64,000 nucleotides of DNA, from assembly GCA_028386065.3 (NCBI GenBank), contig JAKUCV010002060.1, positions 3,678 through 67,677 on the forward strand, read 5' to 3'. The notes below the pieces were generated by a model, which was not told where the DNA came from, searched no databases, and saw only the letters and a list, made by a program, of their open reading frames with translations. Both the position numbers and the translations under genes were made by a program. This document shows, piece by piece, positions 3,568 through 41,734 of this stretch (position 1 is its first letter; each line of letters starts with the position of its first letter). Source of the stretch: Turnera subulata. Its lineage: Eukaryota > Streptophyta > Magnoliopsida > Malpighiales > Passifloraceae.

Positions 3568-3580
3568 GTACAGTACCACG

Positions 3581-11578: not shown

Positions 11579-11579
11579 C

Positions 11580-12225: not shown

Positions 12226-12263
12226 CTTCACAACCTAGATTGTGAACCCAAAACAACCCCTGA

Positions 12264-12275: not shown

Positions 12276-12277
12276 AT

Positions 12278-12568: not shown

Positions 12569-13099
12569 GATATAATAACATCGCACACGATTAAATGCAA
12601 TAATCACAGTGGTCCTCTTTTGTTCAATGATCTTCCATTTAACATCGCGTGTTAACGTTTTCATTTTGATTTAGAACAACTTAAATTTACTTTATCTGAA
12701 TAAATTAATACACTGATATAATATATCTTTAATTTATTCCTTCACATTGCCAGCGACCATGGCCTGAATTAACCACGAGACAATTAGCAATGGTGTCTTT
12801 TACACATAACTAGGACCGAGTGAAAAAATTCCAGTAAATTAGTTCCATTTTTAAGGTTAAGAAAAAAAGAAGTACCAGTTTTTACTACTACGGTCACCTT
12901 TTTCTTCCCAGATTTCACGCATGATCGAACGTTCCATATTTCATGACCTTTTACAATATTGGTCCGTCCTGAAGAAGAGACTACACCGCTATTTTTTCTT
13001 TGGGTCGACATTTCGCATCAACATTTAATTGACTCGTACGTTTGATCCCAGCCCTAATTAATGTTACGTACATTTGAGTAAATAATTGAGATATTTTCG

Positions 13100-13326: not shown

Positions 13327-14465
13327 GTATGTTAATATTTCTGGTCTCTCATTTCACTTTAATTTGCTAGCTGAGGGCTGAAGTTTGAAAGTTGTTGGTC
13401 TATTTAGGTAGACAAAAGTCACGCACTTAAGTGTGGGGTAAGTGGTCATTTTGTTAGGTTTTTGGTGTTGTATAGACAATAGAGTACTTGGTGCACATAT
13501 GTGGTTGGACAGTGATAATATATAGATGCGATTCTACTTGCATGAATAATAACAACAGTCTCTATTCGAGGTCCTTTTACCTTTTGTACTGATCACTTCC
13601 ATAAATATTGAATAAGATGCTTAAGCATTTATTGGAGAGTTCTTTTCCTTTGTTTTTCTTAAGAATAGCAGTTTGATTCATTAATTTTATGATGGAATCA
13701 AAAGATTAAGCATATATGTACTGTTTAATTTTTGGAGATCAAAATAAGTGACCAATTGCTAAAAAATCATGGGGAGTCTATTCTGTGGGTTTGTTAGGTG
13801 TGTTCTGGGTTCCATCCACTCTTCAAGGTTTTAATGCTGTGTTTGTCTTTATGTTGTTGGTCTATTTAAATGGAGAAAAGTCACGTACTTACGTGTGGGC
13901 TTCTTGAGGATTTGCACAATCCCCAAGCCTACACAGCGAGACACATACGGGTATGGCAATTGCATACGTTTGCAATTGTCGCTTCAAGTTCTTATATAGA
14001 AGTGTTTTGAGAAAAAAAAATTCTACACAAGTTTATATATATACTATTCTTAAACCCGACCCGACCCAAATAGTTGAGCTCAGGTTCAGGACCTGAAGAC
14101 CAAGCCGGGTTTTCAATCTTTTTTGGGTTATAACCTCCAAAAGCGGTAGGGTCATGGCAGGTTCTAAAAAGTATTTAGGTTTGATAATAAAACTTATACG
14201 GCACAATTTTTGTGTCAGCCTTTGAACTTTCTCAAAATGAAAGTTATTAACTTTTTTTAAAATATATTACCAGTTTGATCTTGTTAAACCACAGTTGGAC
14301 CTTTTAATCCTCGACTCGGTACTAAATCAGATAGATGACCAAGCCGGATCTGATAACCTTGATATGATTTAAGAGTGAATAGTAATAATATTTCGTTCTA
14401 CCTTTCACCACTATGCAACATTAACAGAAGTTTCTTTGTGTTTTTTTTTTTAATCAATAACGCAG
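13327..14465 (+). other. 5'-leader intron of BAHD gene 2
   Basis: Donor GGCCG|GTATGTT and acceptor ACGCAG|GTAAAACAG, 12 bases before the ATG. The length is about 1139 bp. The 5' part matches the gene 1 leader intron. A stretch near 14041-14130 is shared with 16890-16960. Confidence 0.6.
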
Positions 14466-14477
14466 GTAAAACAGAGG

Positions 14478-15857
14478 ATGAAAATCAACATAAAAGAGTC
14501 AACTATTGTGTGTCCCGCTAAAGAAACTCCCCAAAGGCGTCTTTGTTTCTCTAACTTGGACCTATTACAGACAAGATATCATCTCCCAACAGTATTGCTT
14601 TACGAGCCAAATGATTCTAATAATTCAAATATGTTTGATGCTCATGTACTGAAGGAAGCTTTGAGCAAAGTTCTTGTACCATTTTATCCTGCGGCTGGGA
14701 GATTGGCAAAAGATGAAAATGGGAGGATTGAAATAGACTGTAATGCAAAGGGAGTGCTATTTATAGAGGCCGAGACTGATTCTCCTACAAGTGATCTTGG
14801 CGACTTCATGCCTGGCCCCGAACTCTGTCAGCTTGTCCCAACAGTTGATGATTCAGACATCACTCTTTACCCACTTGTTCTTTTGCAGGTACGTACGTAC
14901 ATGTTTTTCCTCCAATGCTTTTTTTTTTTTTTAATCAAAGCAATGAATTTTACTTGTTACTGCTAACAGGTAACAAAATTCAGCTGTGGAGGAGTGTGTC
15001 TAGGATCAGCCATTAGTCATGCCCTGGTAGATGGTGAGGGAGCTCTCAATTTCATTAATTCATGGGCCAGCTTGGCACGAGGCCTTTCTTCTTGCAGCCC
15101 ACCATACGTAGATCGAACAATTCTTCGGGCCCGAGACCCACCAAGGCCCACATTTCACCATATCGAGTATGATCAGCCCCCTACCTTGAACATACCGGCC
15201 CCGGAGCCCAAGCCCACTTCAATGACAAACCTTAAAATCACACCCGAGCAGCTGAACACCTTGAGGTCTAAGGTAAACAACGCCAATGGCACCGAAACGT
15301 ATCATTATTCCACTTACCAAATTTTGACAGCACACATATGGCGTTGCGTGACCAAGGCTCGTGGGTTGCCTGGTGATCAAGCAACCAAGCTAAGCATAGC
15401 CACTAATGGTAGGTCAAGGTTGAACCCTCCACTTCCACCTGGCTACTTTGGGAATGTAATCTTCCATGCAATTCCACTTGCTTTGGCGGGTGATCTTGTA
15501 TCAGAATCTTTACTCCATACGGTGGAGAGAATCGACAGAGCCATAAGAAAGATGGATGACAATTACTTGAGATCCGCTATGGATCGACTGGAAGAAATTG
15601 GTGATCTTACAACAATCACGAGAGGCCCAAACACTTGTCGGAATCCAAACCTTAACGTTGTCAACTGGACGAGACTGCCCTTTTATGAAGCTGACTTTGG
15701 ATGGGGCAAACCATTGTTTTTACGGCCTACAAGGACCTTTGAAGGGACGGCCTATTTGTACTCAAGTCCAGCCAATGATAGGAGTTTCTTGTTGGCCATT
15801 TGCCTGGAGGCCGACCACGTACCATCTTTCGAAAATTTGTTCTATTCTGACATTTGA
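14478..15857 (+). CDS. BAHD acyltransferase, HCT-like (gene 2)
   Basis: Exons 14478-14888 and 14970-15857 with a phase-0 intron of only 81 bp give 432 residues. N-terminus MKINIKESTIV; catalytic HXXXD is H154-ALV-D158, and DFGWG is at 379-383, preceded by NWTRLP. The active-site context is ISHALVDGEG instead of the HHT(V/L)ADGQG of genes 1 and 3. The tandem histidine and the alanine before the aspartate are both changed, although the two catalytic residues remain. This suggests altered acceptor choice or relaxed constraint. The frame is open and the splice sites are normal, so it is treated as a gene. Same family and cellular location as gene 1. Confidence 0.87.
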
Positions 15858-16409
15858 TTTTCGGATTTCCAATTGGATGGATATCTATGTGCTCATTGGT
15901 ATTTTGAGACCCTTAATTTATCATCTGCATGTGTTTTTTTTTTTTTTTCTGATGCAACATCTGCATGTGTTTTGTGAAATGGCAACCCATTGATCTAACT
16001 CCAAAGCATAAATGGGTCTGCTTCGTGTCATTCAATTTCCATGGCTATATGCTTCCTTGTGTAGCAAGTCTTCCAATTTGTTGCATTTATTTAGGGTATT
16101 TGGGATTCTTATGTACTCGGGTATAGTATAATGCAACAGATGCAATTCTCATGTTTGGCTTTTCAAAATTTTTACACATGTTTCACGGGTCCTCATCATC
16201 TAAATTATTGATTACGAATTACCCTACTCATTATATATGGTTTTGTTCCGTACCTTATTATTGCTGGCATTATCGAGTCTCCTGTGGTAATGGGTGTGAC
16301 AGCATCAAGCAAACAAACTAACATTTCACATCAACATTCATAATTAACTCGTACGTATGGTCCCTGCCCTATGTTACATTGAGTAAATAATTGGGATATT
16401 TTTGGTTAA
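15858..16409. other. 3' flank of BAHD gene 2
   Basis: No gene seen. Contains the gene 2 3' UTR and the beginning of another repeat unit; 16350-16520 matches 13030-13205. Confidence 0.5.
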
Positions 16410-19423: not shown

Positions 19424-19438
19424 GTACGAGAAGACGAT

Positions 19439-20971
19439 ATGAAGATCAACATCAAAGAATCAACAATTGTTCGTCCAGCAGAAGATACTCCCCATAAGCG
19501 CCTTTGGGTCTCTAACTTGGACCTAATTCATACAAAATATTTTCTCCCCACAGTGTATCTCTACGAACCAAGTAATTCCTCCAATCTGTTTGATGCTCAA
19601 GTACTTAAGGAAGCTTTGAGTAAAGTTCTTGTACCATTTTATCCTGCGGCTGGGAGATTGGCAAAAGATGAAAATAGCAGGTTTGAAATAGACTGTAATG
19701 CGAAGGGAGTGCTATTCATAGAGGCCGAAACTGATTCTCCTACAAGTGAACTAGGCGATTTCATGCCTAGCCCCGAACTTAGCCAACTTGTTCCAAGAGT
19801 TGATTCTTCTTCGGACATTTCTCTTCACCCACTTGTCCTCCTGCAGGTACATGTGTTTCTATCCAATGTCTCATAAACGAAATAATACACACAAAATGAT
19901 CACATGTTGTTGTTTAATAGTAGTGGTGTAGGGTTTAATGTTGATACCTTATTTAGGGAAAAATTATGAGTGAATTGTGATAAACTACATATCCTAACCT
20001 TATCTAACAAAATTAAATAGGTACAAATTAAGTAGCCATTTAATGTTGCACTAATGAAGCTTAGTTGTTTTTGCTTACAGATAACAAAATTCAGCTGTGG
20101 TGGAATGTGTTTAGGAGTAGGGTGGCATCATACGCTCGCAGATGGTCAGGGAGCTCTCAATTTCATCAACTCATGGGCCAGCCTAGCCCGCGGCCAATCC
20201 ATTTGCATCCCACCACACACAGATCGCACCATTCATAAAGCCCGAGACCCACCAAGGCCCACATTCCACCATATTGAATACGATCAACCCCCAACCTTGA
20301 ACACACCGGCCCAAGATCCAAAACCCACTTCGATGACAAACCTTAAGATCACACCCGACCAACTCAATACCTTGAAGTCCAAGGTAAACAACGTCAATGG
20401 CGGCGGCAACAAAGCTTGTTACTCCACTTATCAAATCCTGACCGCCTACATATGGCGCTGTGCCACCAAGGCTCGCGGGTTGTCCAATGATCAGGCAACT
20501 AGGTTAGGCCTAGCCGTTGATGGTCGGTCAAGATTGGATCCTCCACCTCCACCTGGCTACTTTGGCAATGTAATCTTCCATGCTTCGCCTTTAGCTTTGG
20601 TGGGTGATCTTGTATCAGAATCTTTATTGCATACGGTGGAAAGAATTGACAAAGCCATAAAGAAAATGGATGACAGTAATTACTTGCGATCAGCTATTGA
20701 TCGACTGGAAGAAATAGGTGATCTTACACCAATCTTGCGGGGTCCAAAAGTATGTAACACCCCGAATCTTACTGTTAATAGCTGGACGCGGCTGCCCTTT
20801 TATGAGGCTGATTTTGGATGGGGTAGACCATTGCTTTTGCGCCCTACGTATGCATGTGAAGGTAAGGGATACCTGTACTCAAGCACAGCCAATGATGGGA
20901 GTTTCTTGTTGGCCATTTCCTTGGAGACGGAACACATACCAGCTTTTGAAAAGCTGTTCTATGACATGTGA
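19439..20971 (+). CDS. BAHD acyltransferase, HCT-like (gene 3)
   Basis: Exons 19439-19846 and 20081-20971 with a phase-0 intron of 234 bp give 432 residues. It starts MKINIKESTIV. The catalytic HXXXD is H153-TLA-D157 in WHHTLADG, and DFGWG is at 380-384 after SWTRLP. It is very similar to genes 1 and 2 and belongs to the same subgroup, marked by (I/V)TKFSCGG at the second-exon start; the 45-59 kb subgroup has KTTFSCGG there. No lesion is visible. Predicted role: transfer of an acyl group, probably hydroxycinnamoyl, from CoA to an unknown alcohol or amine acceptor in the cytosol. The acceptor cannot be assigned from sequence. Confidence 0.9.
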
Positions 20972-22103: not shown

Positions 22104-24008
22104 ATGGCCAACCCTGAAGCGCAAGCACTGAATGATGAAATCACAGGAGTCACGAAGGAAGAGACAGGACAGGTATTATTGGTGGGTAAGGTATTAACTG
22201 AAAGGTCCATCAATGTGGCGGAAGTCAAAACTGTTATGGATGAGTTTTTGAACCTAATCAGCAAAGTTGAGGTAAAAAACCTTAGAGACAATACTTTTCT
22301 GTTTAGTTTTGAGGTGGAAGCTGACAGGAGAAGGGTTTTGAATGGATCCCCTTGGTCCATTTTTGAGACTCCAATCGTCTTCAAAGAGTGGCCCCGTGAT
22401 GAAGCTTTGGAGGGAGAAGAATTGGAAAAAGCTTCCTTCTGGACCCAGATGGATAGCCTGGAAAATAGACTTGAAAGGACCGGGTTGGGTGCCTATGAAA
22501 GAACTCGAGCCAAGCAGAGCGCAAACCCAGAGGTTTCTTGTGCAGGAGAAGGGACAAGTAGAGTTATGGGACAGAACAGAAGGAAAGCAAAGGAACACAT
22601 GGTAGATAGCATTAGGTAATATAACTGGCGAACTTCTTCTCCTTGTTAGCAATTGCAAATTTGAGTTTTGCACAAATTAACTGCCTTAGAGATCCTATTT
22701 AATTTTGTTATAATCCGAAAATTTTTGTGTGATCCTGAATGGAGTTATAATCATTTTTTTTTGGTTGAGTGCTAGTTGTTCTTGTGCCATGATAAGAAAT
22801 GAAACCTGTATTGTCAGTGGTGAATAGGTAATCAGTAGAAATTTTTGCAGGCATTAATTCTAATTTAGACATACATTATGGAGTGCTAATGTTAGGCTAA
22901 AGTTTAGGTTTTCTATGTTTCTGGATGTGCAGGATGCTTAACAAGCTTACCCGCCAGAGGATTGATCCTCTCAAGGTTCAACTAATTGCATCTACCATCA
23001 CATCGGCTAATATATTAAAGGTTGTTCTATCTATTTTGCCACTTAATTAATCTAGTTAATATTAGTGCAGCTGGTTCTTCAACTTATCCTTGTAATTCTA
23101 TGCTCTGCAGACAGTGGTGTCAGTTATACATGAGAAGGCCATTCTTGAACCTGCAGTTTGTTCTTCATATGCACAATTGTGTTGGGACCTTCACTTAATT
23201 CTCCCCTCCTTCCCATCAGAAGATGGACCTGGAGATAGAGAAATCACCCTCAAGCGAGTCCTTTTAAACATATGCCAAATGACGTTTGAAAGTTCTGATG
23301 AATTGATGGCAGAAGTTAGGCAGGTGACAGCTCCAGAGCAAGAACTGGAGCCTAAACCAAAAGAAAAAACTGTAGAGGAAGAACTCGAGCGTAGGCGAAA
23401 GGAAAAAACTGTGAAGCTGCGTATCCTTGGAAACATTCGTTTCATTGGAGAACTTGTGAAGCAGAGGATGGTCCCTGAAAGGATTATGCATTTTATTATC
23501 CGCGTCAGCACCAAAACTCTCAGTAATCAGTCTTTATGTCATTAAATTTTTTTATGATGTCTTTCATGCTAACTTGTGATGTCAAATATATACGTGCAGG
23601 AGCTCTTAGGACCTGACACCAATGTTTCTCCTCCCGAGGAAAAGATTGAAGGTTTGTGTGTTCTCTTTGACACCGTTGGCCAGCTGGAGGTTGCATCGGG
23701 CCCTAAGATACGAAGTATAAATGATGTGTATTTCAGTCGACTGGAGGCATTCTTGACAAATCCTCATCTTGCTCCAAGGTTGAAGTTCATGATCCGGGAA
23801 CTCCTTGTTCTACGGGCAAACAACTGGGTTCCCAATAGTCACAAGGTAAGAGTAAGACATTCGTGGTAAAAATCAGTTTCAGTATGGTACACAGAATTGT
23901 TGTTAAATTTATATGTGGATACTCAATACTTTTTATCATATCAAATCATCCATGTAGGTGACAGAGAGCATCGTTCAATTGGATTCAAGACGTGGAAAAG
24001 AATCTTGA
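22104..24008 (+). CDS. DUF4283-MIF4G chimeric protein, copy I (eIFiso4G-like)
   Basis: Five exons, 22104-22615, 22933-23020, 23111-23503, 23600-23845 and 23958-24008, total 1290 nt and join in frame to 429 residues. Residues about 1-115 resemble a shortened DUF4283 domain (VLLVGKVLTERSIN, FLFSFE, FKEWP), which normally occurs in plant LINE ORF1-like proteins. From about residue 171 the protein is the MIF4G domain of eIFiso4G (MLNKLTRQRIDPLKVQL, then the RVLLNICQ, LGNIRFIGEL and NDVYFSRLE segments), the eIF4A/eIF3-binding scaffold region. The eIF4E-binding N-terminus and MA3 domain of full-length eIFiso4G are absent. The protein ends with a private tail (VTESIVQ...). An upstream in-frame ATG at 22017 is possible; 22104 is preferred because the copy family shows no leader extension. 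Confidence 0.8.
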
Positions 24009-24746
24009 GTTGGGTCCAGGTTAATTTTACTATAGGCAATAGACAGACCTGAAGATCTTTGTATGACTCTGTGAGAAACTATTTAGTGTGGATCGGATAT
24101 GTAATTGTTGTTTACCTTGTCTAGTTTGGGAATTATATGACTTGTATTTATATCCTAATATAAATAGCCAGGTTGACTTAATTGGTTGGGTGCAATGGTT
24201 GCTATGTGCCCTTTATTTAACGTTATCCATCTTTATTTTTTGTTTTAGAAAGAACAGGGATTACTTCCCCTGTGATTGGCCGCCTATACACCACGAACGA
24301 TTGGGAAAAAGAAATGGACCAACTTTCAAGTTTGATTAAAGATACAAGTCCTTGTTCGAAAAAACAGTCCTCCAAAAAATTTGTTCACATTACGTCCGAT
24401 GAAGATCTACAGTGTTCTTAATTTTTTCTTAAAAAAGATCAATCTACATATCATGATATAGCAGCGGAAAACAGGACAAATAATTTTATATTATCATTTG
24501 CGGACTACCTTTCATGCTAATCCAGAACCACATATCTACAAGTCAAATAAATGAAGAAGATTCAAACATGTAGCCGGTCGCCCCACCTCACCTACCAGCA
24601 CTTAAGATGGTTGCAGCTCATCCTTTCCCTATCTCCTCTATCGATCACAAAGTTCATATATAGTTCATTTCTAAATTACCAGACACCCTTTTGCCAGTTT
24701 CTCGCTTCTCTCCTTAGTTAGCTATTTATTTTGGGTTCAAGCAGCC
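24009..24746. other. Intergenic region
   Basis: 3' flank of DUF4283-MIF4G copy I and promoter of the small secreted protein at 24747. A TATA-like CATATATAG occurs at about 24654-24662. No other gene seen. Confidence 0.45.
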
Positions 24747-25088
24747 ATGTTTGTTACAAGACACATAACCCCTTCTTTCTTAATCATCAGCTGCCTGCTA
24801 CTTTCACAGTTTCTTCCAAGTTCGAGTTATAATTATGTTGGCGTGCATCAAACTGGGGAAGTTCCAATCCAATCCTTGTCTACAGGATCAAGAAGCTCAG
24901 CTGATAGAGACATCATCAGTGTGTTTCATACCAGGAAGCTTAAGCTTGGAACTGTCATCAAGAGAAGATTTCGTTCTCGCTATGTTCCTCTTCCACGATC
25001 TCGCACCAGATCATCATCTTCTGTACAAATTCAAGTCTCTTTAATCCATGTGATTGGTTCTGTTCTCGGTTTCTTTATCTTCTTGTAG
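24747..25088 (+). CDS. Small secreted protein, uncharacterised (P1)
   Basis: Single-exon frame of 113 residues. Residues 1-28 look like a signal peptide (basic start, then FLIISCLLLSQFL and SSS). The middle is rich in Arg and Ser (KRRFRSRYVPLPRSRTRSSSS), and the C-terminus is a second hydrophobic segment (VIGSVLGFFIFL). This layout fits a secreted peptide precursor or a GPI-anchored small protein. It shares only the PRS core and hydrophobic end with the proteins at 41159 and 43408, so family membership is tentative. No known peptide hormone motif (CLE, PSK, IDA, CEP, RGF) is recognised. It lies between two DUF4283-MIF4G copies. Confidence 0.5.
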   Translation: MFVTRHITPSFLIISCLLLSQFLPSSSYNYVGVHQTGEVPIQSLSTGSRSSADRDIISVFHTRKLKLGTVIKRRFRSRYVPLPRSRTRSSSSVQIQVSLIHVIGSVLGFFIFL

Positions 25089-25213
25089 GTTTCTTCCAGT
25101 TCTAGATATTGTATGTGTGGCAAGTTGTAAAAAAATGTAGAATATTTCTTGTTAAAAGGTCCATTAATATTCAGTGTATTTTTCTCTTTTCTTTTAAGGA
25201 AAGATGAGGAGTT

Positions 25214-25460
25214 ATTGAGTTTATGGAGCCTCACCCACTGTATACTGATTCGAATCCGGAAGGATGGCTCTATTTGTGTCCACACACACTGTACCAAAAT
25301 GTAAATTGACGGTCTCATTTATCAACAAATGTGAACTAAATGCCTTAACTATGCCCGCCGGTCTTCTGCCTCTTCCCGTTGATCTTTGGATATCCCGTTC
25401 TCCACTCATCTCTATTGACGTTACAGTCCCCAAGAAAGTTGCATGAACTGGCACACTAAG
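25214..25460 (+). repeat. Promoter-proximal repeat of the DUF4283 array, copy 1
   Basis: A block including GATTCGAATCCGGAAGGATGG, AAATTGACGGTCTCATTTATC and the TTGACGTTACAGTCCCCAAGA segment recurs at about 28930-29160 and 39120-39420, each time a few hundred bases upstream of a DUF4283 copy or its remnant. It is probably part of the duplicated promoter. The short frames in it are not conserved as protein. Confidence 0.6.
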
Positions 25461-25609
25461 TTAAAGTGGAGTAACTAATACTAAAACAATGGCCTACCCT
25501 GTATAACACACCAACCTGTCTATTTCTTCTCTTAACCCATCTTTGATAGCAATACATATTAAGTTCTACTCCTGTCTATACAGTCAACACAGACCTTAGC
25601 CAAGGAAAG

Positions 25610-28455
25610 ATGAGAAGAAATTGGGAAGAATTTCCAATTGATTTAACTACAAACGAGGAGGCAGGGCTGGAATTTTCAAGGTTGGTACTGTTGGGTAAGG
25701 TAGGAACTGATGAGGTACTCGATGTAGAAGCTATCAAAACTCTCGTGGTGTCACGGAGCCAAGTAAACTCGGTTAAGGTAAGAACAACTGCTAGGGAGGA
25801 TATCTTTCTCTTCTTTTTTGAATCGGAAGAAGACAAGCAGAGGGTTTTGCATGAAGCGTTTTCGTCTGCTTTTAAGAATATCATCTTCAAAGAGTGGCCC
25901 CATGATAAACCCTTAAAGGACATCAAGTTTTCAAAAACTCCTGCCTGGATTCAGGTGCATGGCCTGGCGCCAGATCAATTGATAAAGGAAAATGCGAAAA
26001 AGATTGGAGCTCTGTTCGCCGGTTTGGTGGAATTTGATGATACTGATCTGCGCAGTGATGTTGTTTGTTCGAATGGATACATGAGGCTGAAAGTTGATGT
26101 TTGGGTTGATGAACCATTAAGGGAAGGATTTCTTAATAGGAAACAGAATGGTGAGAGTTACTGGGTTGAGTTCAAGTACGAGGATCTTCCTGCCTTAGAC
26201 TTAGTGCAGGACTGTTGCCCGGAAGAAGACTATGCTGTGTTAGAAAAGGCAATCCTATCAGAAGGCAGGCATATGCCTGAATCGATTGATTTACGAGCCA
26301 GGGAGAGTCCAAAGGTAGGGATTTCTTGTGTAGGAGAAGCGACAAGTGACCTTGCCTGCCATAATAGAAGAAAAGCGAAGGAACACAAGGAAGACAACCT
26401 TATATTACAGGTTGTTCTATCAATCTAAGATCATTTTAGTTAATGTCTTGCAGCAGCTTATTCAACTTGTATTTTATTTCAACCAATTTTAAGTAGATTT
26501 CTGTATATCCCTCTTCTCATTAGAATTACTATGGATAATTTCCAACTCAATTCCTGATATGCACAGCTCAGAGTGGCGTCTTAAGTTACAATCTGCTCCT
26601 GTAATTAGGATATCTTTGAGGCTTGTTAAGTTTATATTTGGAGATCTACAACTAGGAGATTCCTAGTTGACTCTTCAGTAATGATATGATTTGCTGAGTC
26701 TGTACAATTTACTTAAGAACACATGTCCTTATAATGCTTGTCTTAGCCTTGATATCTCAATACTTGTATTTCTATTGTAAAGCAGGGAGGCCCTGCTCCT
26801 GCTTTGGCCAAGGCTGAGGTACCATGGTCTGGTTGCACGGGGCGTCTTTCCGAGAAGGACCGTGTATTGAAGACTGTAAAAGGGTAAGTATCATTAATCC
26901 TTCTCTATTCCTTCAGTAGCAGCTAGGATGGGTGGGTGTCAATTGTCAGTATAGTCCCAAATGTTTCTGTTTTCTTTGATTTGTTGTGACTCCTACTGTT
27001 GCAGGTGGTGATGGTTCAATCATATGCATAGTCATGCACTCAGCATTTTCTTTTTCTGATATGTGATTCTTCAAAACTTTCTAAATACTTCAAATGGTCA
27101 CGCATATATAATTGACTTTGAAGTGTTTTCCTTTTAATCTTTTAATTTTTTAGCTAATGCTAATCTTTGAACAACCAAAGCTTTTGTACAAGTTGCTCAT
27201 ATTCAGTATGCCAGAATGGTGTTTATTATACCATTTTAAATCGTTTATAGCAGTTTGTAAATTTTTTAAATTTTCACTTGCTCTTTTACTTTTTCTTTGT
27301 TTCGAGCAGTATACTAAACAAGCTTACATCAGAGAAATTTGATGTCCTCAAGGGTCAAATTATCGACTCTATCACATCACCCGGACATTTTAAAGGTTAT
27401 TTATTTTATTCTGTATTATGTATTGCTGATTCTTTTGTTCTTTTTTCGGCTTTCAGTCAATCTTACATTTGACTTGCACTGTAGGATGTGATCTCACTTA
27501 TGTTTGATATGGCTGTCGAACCCACGTTCTCCCCTATGCATGCACGGCTGTGCTCTGATCTTAATGAGAAGTTCCCCCGATTCCCACCAGATGGAGAAGA
27601 AATTACATTCAAACGAGTACTCATACATAATTGTCTAGATGCATTTGAGCGTACTCTTAAATTGTGGGAGGTAGTGTGTCTGTTAGCTCCTGGTCCAGAC
27701 CAAGTGAGCGAGCGAAGGGATAATGTGATAGTGCACATGCTCCGGATCCTTGGAAACATCCGTCTGATTGGGGAGCTGTGGAAGCGGCGGATGGTTCCTG
27801 AAAGGATTGTCCATCATATTGTTCAGGTTATTAATAAGATCCTTACTAGTTGCACTTTGTCTTGAAACACGTTAATTTTTATAGGATTGCTCATCGTAAC
27901 TTGCCGTGTTCTAACAGGAACTTTTATTTCCAGTCGAAAAAGTTTACTCTGCTGAAGAAAATGCTGAGGCTATATGTCAGTTCTTCAACACCATTGGCAA
28001 GCAACTTGATGGAAGCCCAAAATCACGGCGCTTAAATGATGTGTATTTTAGTCGATTGAAGTTTTTGTCATCAAATCCTTTGTTGGCGCCACGTCTGAGG
28101 TTCATGATCCTGGATGTGCTGGATCTTCGTGCAAGCAACTGGGTTCCGAGGCTTGAAGAAGTTGTGTGATCCCTAGCTTTGAGTTTGCATGTAATGTAGG
28201 GGTTGAAGATGTGCAAAGGTTCATACCTTTGGTGTTTTGCAGGTGAGACCCAAAACCATTATTAAAATACATTTGGAAGCAGAGAAAGCTCTTGGATCAC
28301 GGCCTGGTGCTACTGCTAGTATGAGAAACAATCGAGGCGTTGCTGGCCTAGGAGGCTTCCGAATAATGCCAGGGATGCCAGGAACCTGGACAGGAATGCA
28401 TTGGATTTGTAATGACAAATTGTTGTTGTTGTTGTTTTTTTTTTTTTTTGGATAA
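25610..28455 (+). pseudogene. DUF4283-eIFiso4G chimeric gene, copy II (probably frameshifted)
   Basis: Exons by comparison with eIFiso4G: 25610-26410 (DUF4283), 26786-26883, 27310-27395, 27485-27826, 27918-28160 and 28243-28455. Exon 1 codes 267 residues with a full DUF4283 domain (LVLLGKV, FKEWPHD, WIQVHGLAPDQ, GYMRLKVDVW). Where the usual zinc knuckle would follow there is only DCCPEED. Exon 2 reads [15 protein letters not shown] and [13 protein letters not shown], the segment just before MIF4G in eIFiso4G. Exon 3 is 86 nt against 88 in copies I and III, breaking the frame into the MIF4G exons. The last exon matches the eIFiso4[10 protein letters not shown] region and ends in a poly-T-coded tail. 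Either it is a pseudogene or it makes only the DUF4283 part. Confidence 0.7.
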
Positions 28456-28929
28456 CGCAATGCAATTGTCGTTTGGGATGGTTGTAGTTTCCCGTTTCTG
28501 GTTTTATTTTCCTAAAAAGAAAACCAAAACCATATTTGGCTAAACTGCCTAGTTTTTATTTTTTAAAAGGGAAGTGGAATTAAAATCTAATTTTAAGGAA
28601 ATCATAAAGAGTGGTTTTTATATTTTGGTTTCCATTTTACAATCCAACGGAGCTAGAGTGTTTGAATTTGAAAAGCCAGTGAGAAATGAGAGCAGGAGTC
28701 TTAGATAGAGAGAGACATTCCTTCTCTGGTAATGAGTAGTTCTACAAGGAAACTTAACTTAAAATTTATATGGAGCCTCGCCCACTATGGTGGTGTAAGC
28801 AACTCGGATTAAAATCCACATTAATTACAGCAGAGTTAATAGTAGAATATGATGTATAGGGGGTGTTTTCAGACAAAAAAAAAAAGATGTATAGGGGGGG
28901 TGTTTCTTTTTCTTTGCACAGTCTGTATC
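28456..28929. other. Intergenic region after DUF4283-eIFiso4G copy II
   Basis: AT-rich 3' flank, with a segment near 28565-28625 that recurs downstream of copy III (31445-31510). No gene seen. Confidence 0.45.
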
Positions 28930-29280
28930 AGAAGAAAGTGATTCGAATCCGGAAGGATGGCTCTTTTTGTGCCCACAATCACACATTACCAAAATGTAAA
29001 TTGACGGTCTCATTTATCAAGAAATGTGAATTAATAAATGCCTTAAAACTATGCCCGCTGGTCTTCTGCCTCCCTTCATTGATCTTTGGATATCCCGTTC
29101 TCCACTCATCTGTATTGACGTTACAGTCCCCAAGATAGTTGCATGAATTGGCTCACTAAGTTAAAGTGGAGTAAACTAATACTAAAACAATGGTCTACCC
29201 TGTATAATGCACCAACCTGTCTATTTCTTCTCTTAACCCATCTTTGATAGCAGTACATATTAAGTTCTGCTCCGGAATAG
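28930..29280 (+). repeat. Promoter-proximal repeat of the DUF4283 array, copy 2
   Basis: Matches 25214-25580. At about 29275 the sequence jumps directly to the equivalent of 26362, so the whole DUF4283 exon except its last codons has been deleted here. Confidence 0.65.
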
Positions 29281-29299
29281 GAGAAAAGCGAAGGAACAC

Positions 29300-31303
29300 A
29301 TGGAAGACAACCTTATATTGCAGGTTGTTCTATAAATCTAAGAATATTTTAGTTTATGTCTTGCAGCCGTTTATTCAACCTGTAATTTATATCAACCAAT
29401 TTTTGGTAGATTTCTGTATATCCCTCTTATCATTAGAATTACAATGGTTATTTCCCAACTCAATTCCTGATATGCAGAGCTCAGAGTGGCGTCTTTAAGT
29501 AACTATCTGCTTCTGTAATTAGGATTTCTTTGAGGCTTGTTAAGGTTATATTTGGTGGTCTGCAGTTAGGAGTTTCCTCGTTGACTCTTCAGTTTACGTT
29601 TGATGATTATTTGACTTCCTTAGTTCTGTACAATTTACTTAAGAATACATGTGCTTATAATGCTTGTCTTAGCCTTGGTATCTCAACACTTGTATTTCTA
29701 TTGTAAAGCAGGGAGGCCCTGCTCCTGCTCTGGCCAAGGCTAAGGTACCATGGTCTGCTTCAAGGGAGTGTCTTTTCGAGAAGGACCGTGTATTGAAGAT
29801 TGTAAAAGGGTAACTATCATTAATCCTTCTCTATTCCTTCAATAGCAGTAGGGTTGGATGGGTGTCATTTGTTAGTACAGTGTCAATTGTTTCTATACCA
29901 TTAAATTGTTGCAACCGTAATTTTGTAATTTTTTTTTTATTTTAACTTACTCTTTTGGCTGATACTTTTTTGCTGTGTTTTGAGCAGTATACTAAACAAG
30001 CTTACACCAAAGAAATTCGATGTCCTCAAGGGTCAACTCATCGACTCTGGCATCACATCCGCAGACATTTTGAAGGTTGTTTGTTTTCTTCTGCAATACC
30101 TGGGCTGATCCTTAAGTCTCTGTTTTCTTTTTGTCAGTTTCTATTTAATCTCACAAATTCCCTTAAACCGCAGGATGTTGTCTCACTTATATTTGATATG
30201 GCTGTCCTGGAACCCACGTTCTGCCCTATGTATGCGCGGCTGTGTTCTGATCTTAATAAGAAGCTTCCCCAATTCCCATCAGATGAACCAGATGGAAAAG
30301 AAATTACAGTCCGGCGAGTACTCTTAAATAATTGTCAAGAGGCATTTGAGGGTGCAGTTAAACTGATGGTGGAAGTGAGGCAGATGACTGGTCCAGACCA
30401 ACAAGAGAGCGAGCGAAGGGACAAGGAGAGACTCGTCAAGCTCCGGACCATTGGAAACATCCGTATGATTGGAGAGCTGTGGAAGCGGAGGATGGTGACT
30501 GAAAGGATTGTCCGTAGTATTGTTCAGGTTAGTAAATAAGATCCTTACTAGTTGCACCTTGTCTTGAAACATGTTGTTTTTGTACGATTGCTCTTCGTAA
30601 TTTGCCGCATTGTTAAACAGGAACTGTTAGAAGCTGCCGACAATAAAGTTTGCCCTGCTGAAGAAAATGTGGAGGCTATATGTCAGTTCTTCAACACTAT
30701 TGGCAAGCAACTTGATGAAAGCCCAAACTCACGGCGCATGAATGATGCGTATTTTAGTCGATTGAAGGGATTGTCATCAAATCCTGAACTGGCGCCGCGT
30801 CAGAGGTTCATGATCCTGGATGTGCTGGATCTTCGTGCAAGCAACTGGGTTCCAAGGCGTGAAGAGGTAGGGTCCTGTATCCGTTAGTTTTGGGATTGTA
30901 TGTAGGTTGAAGATGTGCTAAAGTTCATTCCTTTGGTCCTTTTCAGGTGAAAGCCAAAGCCAATACTGAAATACATTCTGAAGCAGAGAAAAATCTTGGG
31001 TTACGGCCTGGTGCTACAGCTAGTATGAGAAACAATCGTGGGGTTATATCTGCTGCTGCTAACCGACCTGGTGCTGGTGGTATGATGCCTGGCATGCCAC
31101 GAACTAGGAGAATGCCTGGAATGCCTTGTATTGATAATGACAATTGGGAGGCGCCGCGCACCCGTTCAATATCACGGGGTGATGTGTCAGCCATGCAGCC
31201 TTCAGGACGTGTCCAATCTTCAGGATTTAACAAGGCAAGGCGCTGGTGGCCTAGGATGCTTCCGAATCATGCCTGGGATGCCAGGAACCTGGAAAATGCA
31301 TAG
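29300..31303 (+). CDS. MIF4G-only eIFiso4G-like protein, copy III
   Basis: Exons 29300-29323, 29712-29809, 29988-30075, 30174-30527, 30621-30866 and 30947-31303 total 1167 nt, in frame, 388 residues. The first mini-exon codes MEDNLILQ. In copy II the matching codons, AAGGAAG, end the DUF4283 exon; a base change here makes an ATG. The rest is eIFiso4G-like: GGPAPA linker with [11 protein letters not shown], a complete MIF4G domain ([86 protein letters not shown]) and the post-MIF4[18 protein letters not shown] and DNDNWE segments. A late frame change replaces the usual continuation, and the MA3 domain is missing. Potentially a stand-alone eIF4A/eIF3-binding fragment. Whether the mini-exon is used is unproven. 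Confidence 0.7.
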
Positions 31304-32336
31304 GATTTATAATGAAAAATGGTAGATACCCCGCACCCGTTCAATTACGAAGGGGTGATGCAATGCAATTGTTGTTTGGGTGGTGTTGTAGTTTTCCGTT
31401 TTCGCAGCATGTTTGGCTAAACCCTCTAGCTTTTATTTTTTAAGGGAGGTGGAAATTAAATTTAAATTTAAGGGAATCATAAATAGTGATTTTTATATTT
31501 TGGTTTGTTTTTATAATCCATCTCTAAATCTTAAAATTCAAAAATTCTAAATTTTAAATTTTAAAATTCAAATTCTAAACTATAGATCTTAAATCTCAAA
31601 ATTTAAATCTTAAACTTTAAATCCTAAAACATTAAATCTGATTATCCAATCCCAAAATCTACACCCTAAAACCTTAAATTTAGGGTGAACCTTAAATCTT
31701 AAAATTCTATACTCTAAGATGGTTGCTATATTCAATACCATCAAATTAACAACATATATTAGAGCAGGTTAATCTTTTCGATTGAATCGGTTGATGACTT
31801 TATAAAAATTTAATTAAACAGGCCGACTTCATAAAATTCTATATTTAGATCGATATAGGCAACCTAAATTACAATAACTCAGACTTTCAATTAATTAGGT
31901 CGATCTTTAACAATTAAACACGTCTACATTATAACAATACTATCGATAATTTCATGTAGATCCTTCAAGATTGACCAAAAAGTAGACCCCTTTAATTTAG
32001 AGGTCAACTTTTAGTTAAAATGGAGTAGTGTAAACCAACCTGTGTATTTCTTCTGTTAACCCATCTCTAATAGTAGTTCAACAGATTTTAAGAAGAAAAT
32101 TCAGTGAATATAAGATTTCGGTACATTCTGATGGTGTTTTACATCCATCACTGGGATAAGCACAAGGAGAAGATGACAATCTAGGCTAACTACGAGATAG
32201 GAAATAGTAATCCTTATCTTGCTACAGATTATGATTATCAGAAGATATATATTGCTAACCAGTAGACGTACACCAATACTTAAGTTCTACTCCTGTCTAT
32301 TCAGTCAATACATACAGACCCTATAGCCTAGAATAG
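31304..32336. other. Intergenic region with AT-rich degenerate repeats
   Basis: Between about 31500 and 31730 the sequence is a degenerate run of AAATTCTAAA/TAAATCTTAAA-like units. The remainder is AT-rich. From about 32030 the sequence resembles the DUF4283 upstream flank (GGAGTAGTGTAAACCAACCTG). No gene seen. Confidence 0.55.
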
Positions 32337-33150
32337 ATGGGAAGAAATCGGGAAGAATGTTCAATCGTTTTCACTACTAGCGAAGAGGCAGGGCTGAAAT
32401 TTTCAAGGTTGGTATTGTTGGGTAAGGTAGAAGCTGATGATCGGGTACTCCGCATAGAAGCTATCAAAACTCTGGTGGTGTCACGGAGCCAAGTGAACTC
32501 TGTCAAGGTAAGGACAACTGACAGGGAGAATATCTTTCTCTTCATTTTCGAATCGGAAGAAGACAAGCAGAGGGTTTTGCAAGAAGCGTTTTCGTCTGCT
32601 TTTAAGAATATCATCTTCAAAGAGTGGCCCCACGACAAAGCCTTAAAGGACATAAATTTTGCAAAAGGTCCCGCCTGCTGGATTCAGGTGCATGGCCTGC
32701 CGCCAAATCAAATGACCAAGGAAAATGCGAAGAAGATTGGCGCTATGTTTGCCGGTTTGGTGGAATTTGATCACGGGGATCTGAGCGGTGATGTTCTTTG
32801 CTCGAATGGATATATGAGGCTGAAAGTTGATGTTTGGGCTGATGAACCATTCAGGAAAGGATTTCTTAATAGGAAACCGAATGGTGAGAGTTACTGGGTT
32901 GAGTTCAAGCCCGAAAAGGTATAGGGTCCTGTATGTATCTATTCATTAGCTTTGAGTTTGTATATATGCAGTAGCTAGGGTTAAAGATGTGCAAATTAAG
33001 ATCATACCTTTGGTTTTTTTGCAGGTGAATGCCAAAACCAGAACTGAAAAGAATTGTGAAGCTCTACTTCGGGCACTACGAGAAAAAACAAAAATTAAAA
33101 ATGGATTTAACGAGAGATTCATGAGAAGCCCTCCATACATACCGTTGTAA
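32337..33150 (+). CDS. DUF4283 protein spliced to an eIFiso4G tail exon, copy IV
   Basis: Two exons, 32337-32918 and 33025-33150, give 235 residues. Exon 1 is a complete DUF4283 domain (LVLLGKVEADD, FKEWPHD, CWIQVHGLPPNQ, GYMRLKVDVW) ending at EFKPEK, just where a zinc knuckle would begin in LINE proteins. The intron and exon 2 start (VNAKTRTE) correspond to the intron and final-exon start of copy III (VKAKANTE), so all MIF4G exons were removed by an internal deletion whose junction lies in or next to intron sequence. The encoded tail soon diverges. Both exons are open and the splice sites are sound. Function unknown; no zinc knuckle and no MIF4G domain. Confidence 0.65.
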
Positions 33151-34061: not shown

Positions 34062-34076
34062 AAATCTTAGACATGG
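34062..34076 (+). repeat. Left target-site duplication of the truncated LINE
   Basis: AAATCTTAGACATGG is repeated exactly at 36762-36776, on the other side of the element. The 15-bp length is typical of LINE insertion. Confidence 0.9.
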
Positions 34077-36730
34077 GAGGCTACATGTCTGGGAGATTTA
34101 ACGAGACTGACATAGTCTTGGTGCCAAAAGTGCAGCAAGCGACCACTGTGAATGACTACAGGCCAATCAGTTTATGCAATTTTGTTTACAAAGTCATTTC
34201 CAAAATCCTCGCAAACAGACTGCAGCCTATCATGAATGAGCTGATCTCCCCTGAACAATCCGCTTTCATTCCTGGGCGTCTCATCCAAGACAACATCATT
34301 ATTGGACATGAGGCTCTACACGGCTTAAGAACAGCCCGGAGTAAATCGAGGTGGCACATGGGTATCAAACTTGATATGATGAAGGCTTTTGATAGGGTTG
34401 ATTGGTCTTTCATTGAAATGATGCTCTTGAAAATGGGATTTGCTGAAATATGGGTGCAGTGGGTCATGCAGTGCATATCAACCGTGAGATTTAGCGTCCT
34501 CATCAATGGAGTCCGCACACCAAGTTTTAAGCCACAAAAAGGATTATGGCAAGGGGACCCTCTCTCCCCTTACCTCTTCTTACTAGTTGGCGACGTCCTC
34601 TCTTCTATGTTTACTGATGCAAAATCCTCTGGCATTATCAATGGCTATCAAATAAACGAATCATGCCCCTCGCTGTCACACATCATGTTTGCTGATGACA
34701 CAATGCTCTTCGGTGAAGCGACTGTGACGGAGGCTCTTGCAATTAAGCGACTGTTGGAGGACTACTGCAAGGCATCTGGCCAGGCTGTGAATCTGAGTAA
34801 ATCATCAATCATTTTTGGAAAAAATGTCTCTTCCATTACTCGAAGCCAAGTTACTGATGCCATTGGAATCTCTGAATCTAGTCATAGTGATAAGTACCTG
34901 GGGCTGCCAAGCATGTGGGGAAGGTCCAAGAGTGATGCCCTAAAGTTTCTAATGAGGCGTATCGAGGGAAAGATGAATGCATGGAAGAAAAAATACCTTA
35001 GCCAAGCGGGACGCGAGATACTCATCAAAGCGGTCCTCACCTCAATACCGGTATATGCAATGTCATGCTTCCAGCTCCCTAAAGGTTTTATTGATGGGAT
35101 ACACAAGAGGATCAGACACTTTTGGTGGTCTCGCAGTAATGAGGGTGGCTCGGTGCATTGGGTTAATTGGGAGCGGCTCACCCTTCCAAAGCACATGGGT
35201 GGTCTTGGCTTCCGTGATCTTCATCTCTTCAACAAAGCCCTACTTGCTCGCCAATGTTGGCGATTAATAAAGCAACCTGATCAGTTATGGGCAAGGGTCC
35301 TTAAGGGCATTTACTTTCCCCGATCAGATTTTCATGTTGCGCCCTTAGGGGGTAAGCCTTCTTGGGTTTGGAGGAGCCTGCTTGAGGGACGAGCTGTACT
35401 ACAGGCCGGACTACGGTGGAATATCATCAGTGGGAATGATGTGAACATATGGGATGATCCGTGGGTACCCTCTTTGGCTGGCTTCAAAGTGAACTCGCCT
35501 AGGCCCCCAGACTGTCAACTATTTCAAGCCAGCAAAATGAAGAGGGACAACTATGAATGGGATCCTGGCATTCTCTCGCTCTTATTCTCTCCTGAGGAGC
35601 AAAAGGCTATTATGTCCATCCCAATTGGTAATCCGCTGGAACATGATGAACTAGTATGGCACTACACCACATCTGGCGTGTATACTGCTAAATCCGGTTA
35701 CTCCCGCCTGTGCCAACTAAGAATCGATGGGGAAAGGGGACCTCCCTCTGCAACTAATATTACTGCTTTCCCGTGGCACACGGTTTGGAGTCTGGAGGTT
35801 GGTCTGCGAATAAAGAACTTCATGTGGAGGGCCTTGAATGTAGCACTCCCAACCATGGCTAACCTTCATAGTAGAACCATTTCGGCCAGAGCCACCTTCC
35901 ATGTTTGTGGAACTCATGATGAAACTGTATCGCACGCACTGCTATTCTGTGATCAAGCTAGAACCACGTGGCTGTCCAGTGCAACTGGCTATCGCCTAGT
36001 ACAGAATGAGTCCCAGTCCTTCCGTGAGTGGTGGCTCTCCTTGCTGGATGGTGCGGCTCAGCTCCCTAAAGGCTACCTTGAGCAGATTGCCTATCTATTA
36101 TGGGAAATTTGGAAAGCACGTAACACTGCAGTTTGGGGCTCCCCCATATGCCCTCATGATACTGCAAGGAAAGCGCATCGATTGTCACTTGAACAGCTTT
36201 CGCTGCGACAATCTACCTCTATGGTAACGCGCCCTACCAGAAATACTAGATGGGTTCCACCACCAAAGGACTGGTGCAAGGTGAACACGGATGCATCCTT
36301 TGTAAGTGCCTTCAAGCCTACTGGTATAGGAGTGATTATGCGAAATGACAAAGGCGACATTGTGGAGACGGTACAGTTGGCCTGCAAGACCACCTCTGCC
36401 ATGATGGCTGAAGCTTGGGGTATGATCTACGGTATTCAATCTGCACAGAGGCACGGGTGTAAAAAGGTGATCATGGAAATAGATTCAGCGGTTTTGGCGG
36501 ATGTTATCTCCAACCCAGAGAAATGTCGCTGGGAAATAAGAGCCCTGTTGTCCAGAATTCTAGCTTTACTAGACTTCTTTGATAGCGTAGAGATCTCTGC
36601 AGCTCATAGACAAGCCAATAGAGTAGCTGACTTGTTGGCAAAGAATGCTAGAAACAATTTAAGCCCTGGCGTTGTCCTATGCCAGACCCCCAGCTCTCTT
36701 CGTCCCATTGTAATTGATGAGCTTGCTTAA
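34073..36730 (+). CDS. LINE ORF2 fragment: reverse transcriptase, zinc-binding region, RNase H
   Basis: Open frame of 885 residues. RT motifs: YRPISLCN at about 29, the first catalytic aspartate at 101 (IKLDMMKAFD), GDPLSP, and FADD at 206-209. A zinc-binding RT-associated region follows (WHTVWSLEVGLRIKNFMWR; CGTHDETVSHALLFC). The C-terminal RNase H has D740 in VNTDAS, then GIGVIMRNDKG and EAWGM. The N-terminal endonuclease of a complete plant LINE ORF2 (about 1300-1400 residues) is missing through 5' truncation. The first ATG (34073) lies in the target duplication, so the frame opens in host sequence; the next is 34085. The frame has no internal stop, so insertion is fairly recent. Confidence 0.9.
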   Translation: MGGYMSGRFNETDIVLVPKVQQATTVNDYRPISLCNFVYKVISKILANRLQPIMNELISPEQSAFIPGRLIQDNIIIGHEALHGLRTARSKSRWHMGIKLDMMKAFDRVDWSFIEMMLLKMGFAEIWVQWVMQCISTVRFSVLINGVRTPSFKPQKGLWQGDPLSPYLFLLVGDVLSSMFTDAKSSGIINGYQINESCPSLSHIMFADDTMLFGEATVTEALAIKRLLEDYCKASGQAVNLSKSSIIFGKNVSSITRSQVTDAIGISESSHSDKYLGLPSMWGRSKSDALKFLMRRIEGKMNAWKKKYLSQAGREILIKAVLTSIPVYAMSCFQLPKGFIDGIHKRIRHFWWSRSNEGGSVHWVNWERLTLPKHMGGLGFRDLHLFNKALLARQCWRLIKQPDQLWARVLKGIYFPRSDFHVAPLGGKPSWVWRSLLEGRAVLQAGLRWNIISGNDVNIWDDPWVPSLAGFKVNSPRPPDCQLFQASKMKRDNYEWDPGILSLLFSPEEQKAIMSIPIGNPLEHDELVWHYTTSGVYTAKSGYSRLCQLRIDGERGPPSATNITAFPWHTVWSLEVGLRIKNFMWRALNVALPTMANLHSRTISARATFHVCGTHDETVSHALLFCDQARTTWLSSATGYRLVQNESQSFREWWLSLLDGAAQLPKGYLEQIAYLLWEIWKARNTAVWGSPICPHDTARKAHRLSLEQLSLRQSTSMVTRPTRNTRWVPPPKDWCKVNTDASFVSAFKPTGIGVIMRNDKGDIVETVQLACKTTSAMMAEAWGMIYGIQSAQRHGCKKVIMEIDSAVLADVISNPEKCRWEIRALLSRILALLDFFDSVEISAAHRQANRVADLLAKNARNNLSPGVVLCQTPSSLRPIVIDELA

Positions 36731-36761
36731 TAAAAGATATCTTCTGAGTTTCAAAAAAAAA
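34077..36761 (+). mobile_element. 5'-truncated LINE (non-LTR retrotransposon)
   Basis: Body between the 15-bp duplications, ending in an A tract at about 36753-36761. It is inserted in the 3' flank of DUF4283 copy IV. The duplicated block around 40490 carries the uninterrupted site (TTTAGTGATGGAAAAGCAAAG), which confirms the insertion. Confidence 0.92.
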
Positions 36762-36776
36762 AAATCTTAGACATGG

Positions 36777-39561: not shown

Positions 39562-40280
39562 ATGGCAAGAGATTGGGAAGAATGTTCAATCGTTTCTCTA
39601 CAAGCGAAGAGGCAGGGCTGGAATTTTCAAGGTTGGTACTGTTGGGTAAGGTAGTAACTAATGAAGAGGAACTCCATATAGAAGCTATCAAATATCTCGT
39701 GACGTCGCGGAGCCAAGTGAACTCTGTTAAGGTAAGGATAACGGACAGGGAGAATATCTTTCTTTCTCTTCATTTTTGAAGCGGAAGACGACAAGCTGAG
39801 GGTTTTGCGTGGAGCGTTTTGGTCTGCTTTTGATAGTATCATCTTCAAAGAGTGGCCCCATGACAAAGCCTTAAAGGACATAAATTTTGCAAAAGCTCCC
39901 GTCTGGATTCAGGTGCATCATGCATGGCCTGCCGCCAAATCAAATAACAGCGGAAAATGCGAAAAAGATTGGCGCATTGTTTGCTGGTTTGGTGGAATAT
40001 GATTACGGCGATGTCAGCGGTACTGATGTTCTTTGCTCGAATGGATATATGAGGCTGAAAGTTGATGTTTGGGATGATGAACCGTTATGGGAAGGATGTT
40101 ATAAAAGGAAACCGAATGGTGAGAGTTATTGGATTGAGTTCAAGCTCGAAAAGGTATTTATTAGCTTTGAGTTTGTATGCAGTAGGGTTAAAGATGTGCT
40201 ATGTTCACATCTTTGTGTTTGCAGGCGAATGAAAAATGGTAGATGCATGCCCCGAACCCGTTCAGTTACCAAGCGGTGAT
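39562..40280 (+). pseudogene. DUF4283 pseudogene, copy V
   Basis: Aligned with copy IV, the ATG at 39562 is followed by a one-base loss near 39596. Extra bases near 39761 (TCTTTCTTTCTC) and a small insertion near 39914 (CATCATG) add further frame changes. The remaining segments (LVLLGKV, FKEWPHD, MHGLPPNQ, GYMRLKVDVW) are recognisable in three frames. The 3' donor at EFKLEK and the downstream intron are conserved with copy IV, but no good tail exon follows. Non-functional. Confidence 0.8.
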
Positions 40281-41158
40281 GCAATTGTTAACCGAGATCG
40301 ATCAAGTTTTTTGCGTTTTAATTTATGAAAAAAAAAGTTTATTTCACTTTTATGTAAGGTAGGTAAATTTATTGTGACTGTGCGAATATGGTTGATGATT
40401 GTAGCAGCTTTTTTTTGGGTGAAAAGATTGTAGCAGCTTTCAGTTTTAGTGGTTTCATGGATTTGGATTTTATTTTTTAGTAAATTTAGTGATGGAAAAG
40501 CAAAGTGAACCACGCATACATGAATGAACCGCAGAAATTAATTAAGTTAAGAGAGTGGTGTGCGATTATGGGTATCGTATTCCCTCAAATCTTTCTCTAG
40601 AAGACGGAATTGTTCTGTCAGTTCAACACAAAATCGCAGTTCATTGAAATTGGAAAGGGACTTTGCATAAAAAAGTAGCTGCCTTTTCTTCCCATTCTTC
40701 GCAATTTTTTCTCGACAAAGAAAAAAACAATTCTTTTCCTTTTCCCTATTTATAATCACCGAAAGTGCTTTGTCGGCTGCACAGGGCCTCCGGGCATCTC
40801 CTTTATTGCTTCAAATACTTTATCTTTGTTTTTCCCCAAAGAAAATGAAGAAGAAAGAACATAGAAATAGAACAAAACATAATACTTAGTTAAAACAATG
40901 CCCTTCTTTTTTACAATGCCCTTTTCTTTTTCTTTTTTGGGTTAGGTAATTGTCAATAAAGCAACAAGACGAGAACAGCATAATTTGCAGCTAACCTTTT
41001 ACCGGTGGCCCAACCCAAGTAGACATTATAAAGGACTAATTAGCTGACTGCTCTAATTACAAGTATAGGTCTTCTGTCTTCATCACCAAACGCAGCTATA
41101 GTGATTAACTGTTTTATAACTACCCACCTCCTTCACCCTTCTCTGATTACAAGCCAAC
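40281..41158. other. Upstream region of small secreted protein gene P3
   Basis: Duplicate of 36777-37481 without the SINE-like and LINE insertions. No coding sequence. It presumably contains the P3 promoter; no clear TATA box was chosen. Confidence 0.5.
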
Positions 41159-41734
41159 ATGAAGAGAAAAATACTCACATGTCTATTAGCCTTCATCTTT
41201 TGCTTCAATAGTCTTTCATTCTGTGCATGTGATGAAACTCACTATGTCACACTCACACCTGATGAACACAATTCACCGCTGAAGAGCACAAGCCAACATA
41301 AGAGTACGTGATTATACCTGCAAATCTTGTTCTTTTTTTTTTCTTTCGCTTTAAGCTAGTGATCAAGACTCAAGAGGACATTGCCTCTTAATTAGTTGAC
41401 TTATGCAACATAATATTACCGTATTGTAATATTTCACGTTTTAATATATTGATGCCCTATGTGTAAACTTGCAGATATCTACGAAGGATTGATGAAGCAA
41501 TCGAAAAGAAAATTAGGCTATGGCAGAATACAGGAGGGTATACATGAAGCGAATTATAAAGTGAAGAATTTCCAGAGAGCGGCAAAAGGTGTTTACGGTG
41601 GTCAAGATGCAATTCGTCCTCGTAGCCCCAATTCCAAGAAGAGTGGAGCACCCTCTTTACTCTTGAAATCTTCTTCCCTATCGACAATAATAAGACATGC
41701 TGGTGTTGGGCTACTTCTGGTTGCCTTCCTTTAG
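41159..41734 (+). CDS. Small secreted protein with YGG-D-PR core (P3)
   Basis: Two exons, 41159-41303 and 41475-41734, with GT-AG ends, give 134 residues. Residues 1-24 form a signal peptide (KRKILTCLLAFIFCF, cleavage likely near FCA-CDE). A charged middle (KQSKRKLGYGRIQEG, KNFQRAAKG) follows, then the core VYGGQDAIRPRSPNSKKSG and a Ser-rich stretch. The C-terminus is hydrophobic (AGVGLLLVAFL). The layout suits either a peptide precursor or a GPI-anchored small protein. The pseudogene at 37482 is its duplicate and the gene at 43408 a more distant paralogue with the same intron position. No named family recognised. Confidence 0.65.

Follow-up and report, generated by a model that had tools for sequence, protein, structure and literature searches.

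A DUF4283–MIF4G fusion gene among the remnants of a five-copy tandem array in Turnera subulata

The window analysed here is a stretch of 64,000 nucleotides from contig JAKUCV010002060.1 of Turnera subulata. Between 22.1 and 40.3 kb it holds an array of five related copies (I to V), built from an exon for DUF4283, a domain of the kind found in the first open reading frame (ORF1) of long interspersed nuclear elements (LINEs), and from a segment of the eIFiso4G gene that encodes its MIF4G domain. The fusion of the two domains is real and the family consists mostly of remnants: one joined protein can be read from the array, and the other copies are broken or down to one piece. With one copy of the five in frame, the chimeric gene family that the first-pass annotation of this DNA had described is not supported as a family of working genes. 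The pairing of the domains is new to the searches made here, and the process that generated it is an ordinary and known one. We put the probability of the anatomy and history laid out below at about 0.7.

Copy I (22104-24008) has the following exons:

22104..22615, plus strand: exon 1, DUF4283, start codon at 22104 (Pfam E 3.2e-14), GT donor at 22616
22933..23020, plus strand: exon 2, 88 nt, eIFiso4G exon of the MLNKLT type, placed by tblastn with eIFiso4G proteins and by intron phases
23111..23503, plus strand: exon 3, MIF4G, with a 36-nt in-frame insert relative to copy III; donor CCGC/GTCAGC
23600..23845, plus strand: exon 4, end of MIF4G (Pfam 27.4 bits alone, below the cut-off of 30.8)
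23958..24008, plus strand: exon 5, frame-shifted relic of the H1-CT exon that closes the frame, aligned with copies II and III

As had been claimed, the five exons join across four GT-AG introns into one frame of 429 residues, and Pfam finds DUF4283 and MIF4G in the exon pieces scanned. Compared with copy III, its three MIF4G exons carry four gaps, all of them multiples of three (3, 36, 3 and 3), and the likely source of the 36-nt insert is a 39-nt tandem duplication within exon 3, at 23335-23412. The protein matches Tsubulata_029249 (98% identity across 98% of the query), the NCBI model of this gene, in which both domains are present; the model is flagged LOW QUALITY and its ends differ from our reading. 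Among solved structures, seven distinct sequences match the NCBI protein P0001, and 1hu3 (EIF4GII, E 5.6e-31) is the best of them. The draft genome comes from the S-morph (PMC9862265), and the words eIFiso4G and MIF4G are absent from the main text of that paper.

Copies II and III follow downstream:

25610..26410, plus strand: copy II exon 1, DUF4283 and a degenerate zinc-knuckle region, 267 open codons (Pfam)
26786..26883, plus strand: copy II exon 2, eIFiso4G linker GGPAPAL... (tblastn)
27310..27395, plus strand: copy II exon 3, where the frame is lost
27485..28169 (27485-27826, 27918-28169), plus strand: copy II MIF4G exons, out of frame with exon 1 (Pfam)
29300..29323, plus strand: copy III exon 1, the last codons of the DUF4283 exon, with an ATG that opens MEDNLILQ (tblastn)
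29712..29809, plus strand: copy III linker exon (tblastn)
29988..30866 (29988-30075, 30174-30527, 30621-30866), plus strand: copy III MIF4G exons, in frame (Pfam E 2.1e-21 and 1.5e-12)
30947..31303, plus strand: copy III H1-CT and linker exon with the stop, motif according to PMC3352336

In copy II, DUF4283 and the linker are in frame, and exon 3, which has 86 nt where its counterparts in copies I and III have 88, shifts the frame into a stop after 335 residues. Copy III is open from the ATG at 29300 through its linker, MIF4G and H1-CT exons, for 388 residues. The H1-CT motif of eIFiso4G, described as PRREExKAKTIxEHxEAExxLG (PMC3352336), has a close match in copy III; its frame is lost in copy I, it lies behind the stop in copy II, and a scrap is left in copy IV. 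Of the 108 alignment columns that do not vary among 15 canonical eIFiso4G proteins, copy III keeps 97; copy II keeps 84 of 107. The intron places correspond between the copies, which were compared among themselves.

The last two copies stand on either side of a LINE:

32337..32918, plus strand: copy IV exon 1, DUF4283 joined to a match of the end of the last MIF4G exon (Pfam E 9.8e-10)
33025..33150, plus strand: copy IV exon 2, H1-CT exon scrap (VNAKTRTE...), at the end of which an open frame of 235 residues closes
34077..36763, plus strand: 5'-truncated LINE, not part of the chimera, with reverse transcriptase, zf-RVT and RNase H-like domains (Pfam)
39562..40330, plus strand: copy V, DUF4283 with frame breaks, MIF4G missing as in copy IV (tblastn)

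Copy V, which lies beyond the part covered by the first-pass annotation, is built like copy IV and its frame is broken after 30 residues. The predicted protein Tsubulata_029253 (P0048, partial; 39900-41740), compared by eye, seems to be a piece of copy V plus an unrelated downstream frame. DUF4283 is above the Pfam cut-off in the exons at 22.1 kb (E 3.2e-14), 25.6 kb (E 5.9e-08 to 7e-08) and 32.3 kb (E 9.8e-10). MIF4G (HEAT-1) is recognised by Pfam in copies I, II (out of frame) and III, in all six pieces scanned and above the cut-off in five, and copies IV and V have none. The earlier picture of single DUF4283 exons upstream of MIF4G exons and in phase with them holds for copy I and is not confirmed elsewhere: in copy II the phase holds only into exon 3, copy III has only the last DUF4283 codons, and copy IV has no MIF4G.

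The array resembles eIFiso4G in its MIF4G domain, its linker exon and the close H1-CT match of copy III, and differs from it in that copy I is headed by DUF4283 and that neither the N-terminal SLRPGG motif, the eIF4E-binding site nor MA3 (HEAT-2) was found in the window by tblastn (E limit 0.01), in line with the expected proteins without eIF4E-binding or MA3 regions. Poplar P0036, which carries both the motif and the binding site, matches only from residue 190, and P0007 and P0012, both of which list PF02847, match no further than residues 374 of 607 and 493 of 718. The MIF4G part was copied as DNA and not retroposed, as had been argued before, because its eIFiso4G-type exons bear introns; a retroposed copy would be intronless, and this has no bearing on how the single DUF4283 exon arrived.

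DUF4283 is present in copies I, II and IV, and in what PMC11288735 says of the domain it is conserved in LINE ORF1 proteins, which supports in kind its earlier assignment to that type. Unlike in a LINE, the DUF4283 of the array is followed by eIFiso4G exons and not by ORF2 of the same element, and it differs from other DUF4283 proteins in having MIF4G as its partner and a degenerate zinc knuckle. A CCHC zinc knuckle is typical of LINE ORF1 proteins; in the Pfam searches zf-CCHC_4 reached 0.009 in copy II, below the cut-off, and was not listed for copy I. DUF4283 is also among the domains described as fused to NLR receptors (PMC4759884), where it is likewise joined to a host protein. A PDB search with our alignment A1 gave 0 sequences up to E 1.

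The reverse transcriptase frame behind copy IV belongs to an insertion that has flanking repeats of its own: the LINE at 34077-36763, taken to be cut short at its 5' end since it shows no endonuclease domain, is bordered by the 13-base direct repeat ATCTTAGACATGG at 34064-34076 and again at 36764-36776. With these repeats and the truncation we rejected the DUF4283 of copy IV as its ORF1. Another LINE, possibly young, lies on the minus strand at 50867-56995, with a frame of 655 aa that has DUF4283 (E 1.8e-29) and a second of 1387 aa with endonuclease, reverse transcriptase and RNase H-like domains. Descent of the array from this element was rejected as well, its ORF1 having 19% identity to copy II (BLASTP E 0.71) and a probability of 2.8 in a profile comparison with A1; the DUF4283 of copy I touches it weakly (tblastn E 0.002, 21% identity).

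We suggest that, in the lineage of Turnera, a DNA rearrangement brought a LINE ORF1-type DUF4283 exon together with a duplicated piece of eIFiso4G that encodes MIF4G. The chimera would then have been duplicated in tandem, a second and younger segment of eIFiso4G would have entered it or recombined with it, and deletions would later have removed parts; the order of these events and the number of segments we infer. Copies IV and V have introns that match intron 5 of II and III (z 8.8 to 17.5), in copy IV the one at 32919-33024, and since an intron of this type follows their DUF4283, their ancestor was probably a copy that bore MIF4G. The end of exon 2 of copy I, together with intron 2, matches the end of the DUF4283 exon and intron 1 of copies II and III (scores 73 and 59, 0 of 1000 shuffles each), and not their positional counterparts, exon 3 and intron 3 (reached in 76 and 339 of 1000 shuffles); two further controls gave no match either (302 and 239 of 1000). 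This suggests that intron 1 holds the remnant of an older, copy I-like unit ahead of the younger eIFiso4G segment, and the intron matches suggest two eIFiso4G segments in the array. The tree agrees with this history in part: copies II and III form a pair (100/98) that joins a Dovyalis eIFiso4G (94/74, unstarred), copy I sits away from them on a long branch (0.7), and copies I, II and III form one group in 0 of 200 bootstrap trees.

For DUF4283 the pairwise ratios of nonsynonymous to synonymous change (dN/dS, bootstrap ranges in brackets) are 0.40 for II-IV (0.23-0.67), 0.81 for I-II (0.55-1.24) and 0.41 for I-IV (0.22-0.67), and for MIF4G 0.79 for II-III (0.53-1.31), 0.28 for I-III (0.17-0.43) and 0.34 for I-II (0.19-0.53), where comparisons with copy I include an earlier period as ordinary eIFiso4G, and where the method is biased low, the median of neutral draws being 0.76 or 0.63. 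The linker exon of II-III gives 1.39 (0.44-4.23). Counted by branch, silent to altering changes in DUF4283 are 15:26 in copy II, 9:8 in IV and 7:30 in V (186 shared codons, 6 ambiguous sites), and in MIF4G 9:40 in II and 9:10 in III (194 codons, 25 unpolarised sites, with the distant copy I as outgroup). The intact pieces (MIF4G of III and DUF4283 of IV) thus have 18:18 against 16:70 in the broken ones (MIF4G of II and DUF4283 of V), with p 0.0008 in Fisher's test, and with the DUF4283 of copy II put on either side of the split p is 0.001 and 0.007. Taken singly, the comparisons give 0.022 for DUF4283 of IV and V, 0.13 for II and V, and 0.029 for MIF4G of II and III. The counts suggest constraint on the MIF4G of copy III and the DUF4283 of copy IV, and none on the MIF4G of copy II and the DUF4283 of copy V.

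A number of points speak against what we propose. As to the history, in the first screen the match of intron 1 to copy I was above z 5 for copy II only and not for copy III, the introns were compared only within the array, the approximately unbiased test does not reject a single clade of the three copies I, II and III (p 0.139), and long branches, among them that of copy I, are difficult to position in a tree. As to copy I, the donor of exon 3 looks weak, the shifted last exon has lost the H1-CT motif, and 76 of 108 invariant columns are kept, fewer than in copy III and most short MIF4G proteins. As to selection, neutral simulation reached the observed II-IV ratio of DUF4283 in 33 or 113 of 2000 draws, depending on the transition/transversion ratio, and left its frame free of stops in 159 or 224 of 2000 (8 to 11%); the single-branch tests give 0.016 and 0.032 for IV, 0.044 and 0.076 for III, and 0.096 and 0.20 for DUF4283 of II; and the groups of intact and broken pieces were chosen after the counts were seen, with no correction for multiple tests.

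The strongest rival, to which we give somewhat less than even odds and which is compatible with the proposed history, is that all copies are pseudogenes at differing stages of decay and that their open frames are leftovers. Copies II and V are broken, the MIF4G of the one and the DUF4283 of the other look neutral, the NCBI model carries its quality flag, a DUF4283 frame may stay open by chance as often as the neutral draws indicate, and DUF4283 is reported to be enriched among pseudogenes of some plants (PMC7935947). Copies I, III and IV nevertheless have open frames, the gaps of copy I keep the frame, and, compared with V and II, copies IV and III have fewer altering changes for each silent one.

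It could also be that MIF4G pieces work alone, as in copy III, like possible short eIFiso4G-like proteins elsewhere, and that the DUF4283 exon is incidental, which we find rather unlikely. Copy III is open and slow-changing, and predicted proteins with MIF4G only or with a double MIF4G occur in Eucalyptus, Syzygium, Solanum, Alnus and Cephalotus, but the DUF4283 of copy IV also looks constrained (9:8). Four of these proteins (P0002-P0005, from Eucalyptus, Syzygium and, for two, potato) have two MIF4G units in a row, and because the second restarts at the same GGP linker, the MIF4G exon block of eIFiso4G seems to have been duplicated repeatedly in flowering plants. Together with P0024 from Alnus they resemble the array in being copies of this exon block with no MA3 listed, and differ from it in that DUF4283 is not in their Pfam lists. 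The short and doubled units of the five genera keep 85 to 98 of 102 to 108 invariant columns, Papaver 77 of 104, and Medicago and Urochloa 59 to 65 of 105 to 107.

That the array encodes a decoy or dominant-negative eIFiso4G limiting viruses is very improbable, for although silencing of one eIFiso4G copy altered plum susceptibility to a potyvirus (PMC6806492), and eIFiso4G disruption in Arabidopsis is described as giving virus resistance and MIF4G and MA3 as binding eIF4A (PMC3352336), the eIF4E-binding and MA3 parts were not found by tblastn, copy I has lost H1-CT, and wheat eIFiso4G without MA3 was disrupted in its interaction with PABP, eIF4A and eIF4B (recounted in PMC10721207).

The protein searches, all capped and the first of them scoring the best 8000 candidates, gave no other protein with both DUF4283 and MIF4G, and no DUF4283 relatives beyond the locus (2 matches among 630 candidates, both from this contig, and 1 among 693, the query itself). 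The missing relatives are weak evidence, because the Turnera annotation dropped genes with transposon domains (PMC9862265, section 4.2), the search requires shared 5-letter words, and only the best 8000 candidates were scored. In the open-licence literature searched, where 18 papers mention DUF4283, we found no paper on DUF4283 together with MIF4G and no mention of Tsubulata_0292 identifiers, the main text of PMC12661371 had none of four terms looked for in it, and papers there on chimeric genes or exon shuffling with translation initiation factors held nothing evidently related.

Returning to the history of fusion and tandem duplication, it is possible, if on balance doubtful, that copy I makes a functional fusion protein. 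An expressed copy I would most likely encode an adaptor in which DUF4283 forms the head and MIF4G the body, unable to recruit eIF4E via the usual site and with a perhaps weak contact to eIF4A or eIF3, while copy III would give a MIF4G-only and copy IV a DUF4283-only protein. DUF4283 is possibly nucleic-acid-binding, and the MIF4G body might bind eIF4A or eIF3. The more far-reaching idea, that retroelement-type and translation-scaffold domains were fused in this 18-kb array into a new host gene, which stayed a fusion in copy I and which deletions afterwards divided into two genes under separate selection, the MIF4G-only copy III and the DUF4283-only copy IV, we regard as unlikely.

Tandem copies of a BAHD-type acyltransferase lie around the array, at 3401-5064, 14454-15858, 19424-20971, 45811-47926 and 57201-58630 (Pfam Transferase on one piece), and the Turnera style-length gene is described as likewise BAHD (PMC9862265). 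On the minus strand at 8093-12571, open frames lie between two 296-nt direct repeats that are 95% alike, which by their motif look like a copia-type element.

If it is expressed, the array would hold a derivative of a translation factor headed by a domain of the jumping-gene type, which is a pairing unseen in these searches, and fusion, duplication and fission could be read side by side with the broken copies as controls. If it is not, it would still show clearly how short-lived chimeras arise through tandem duplication.

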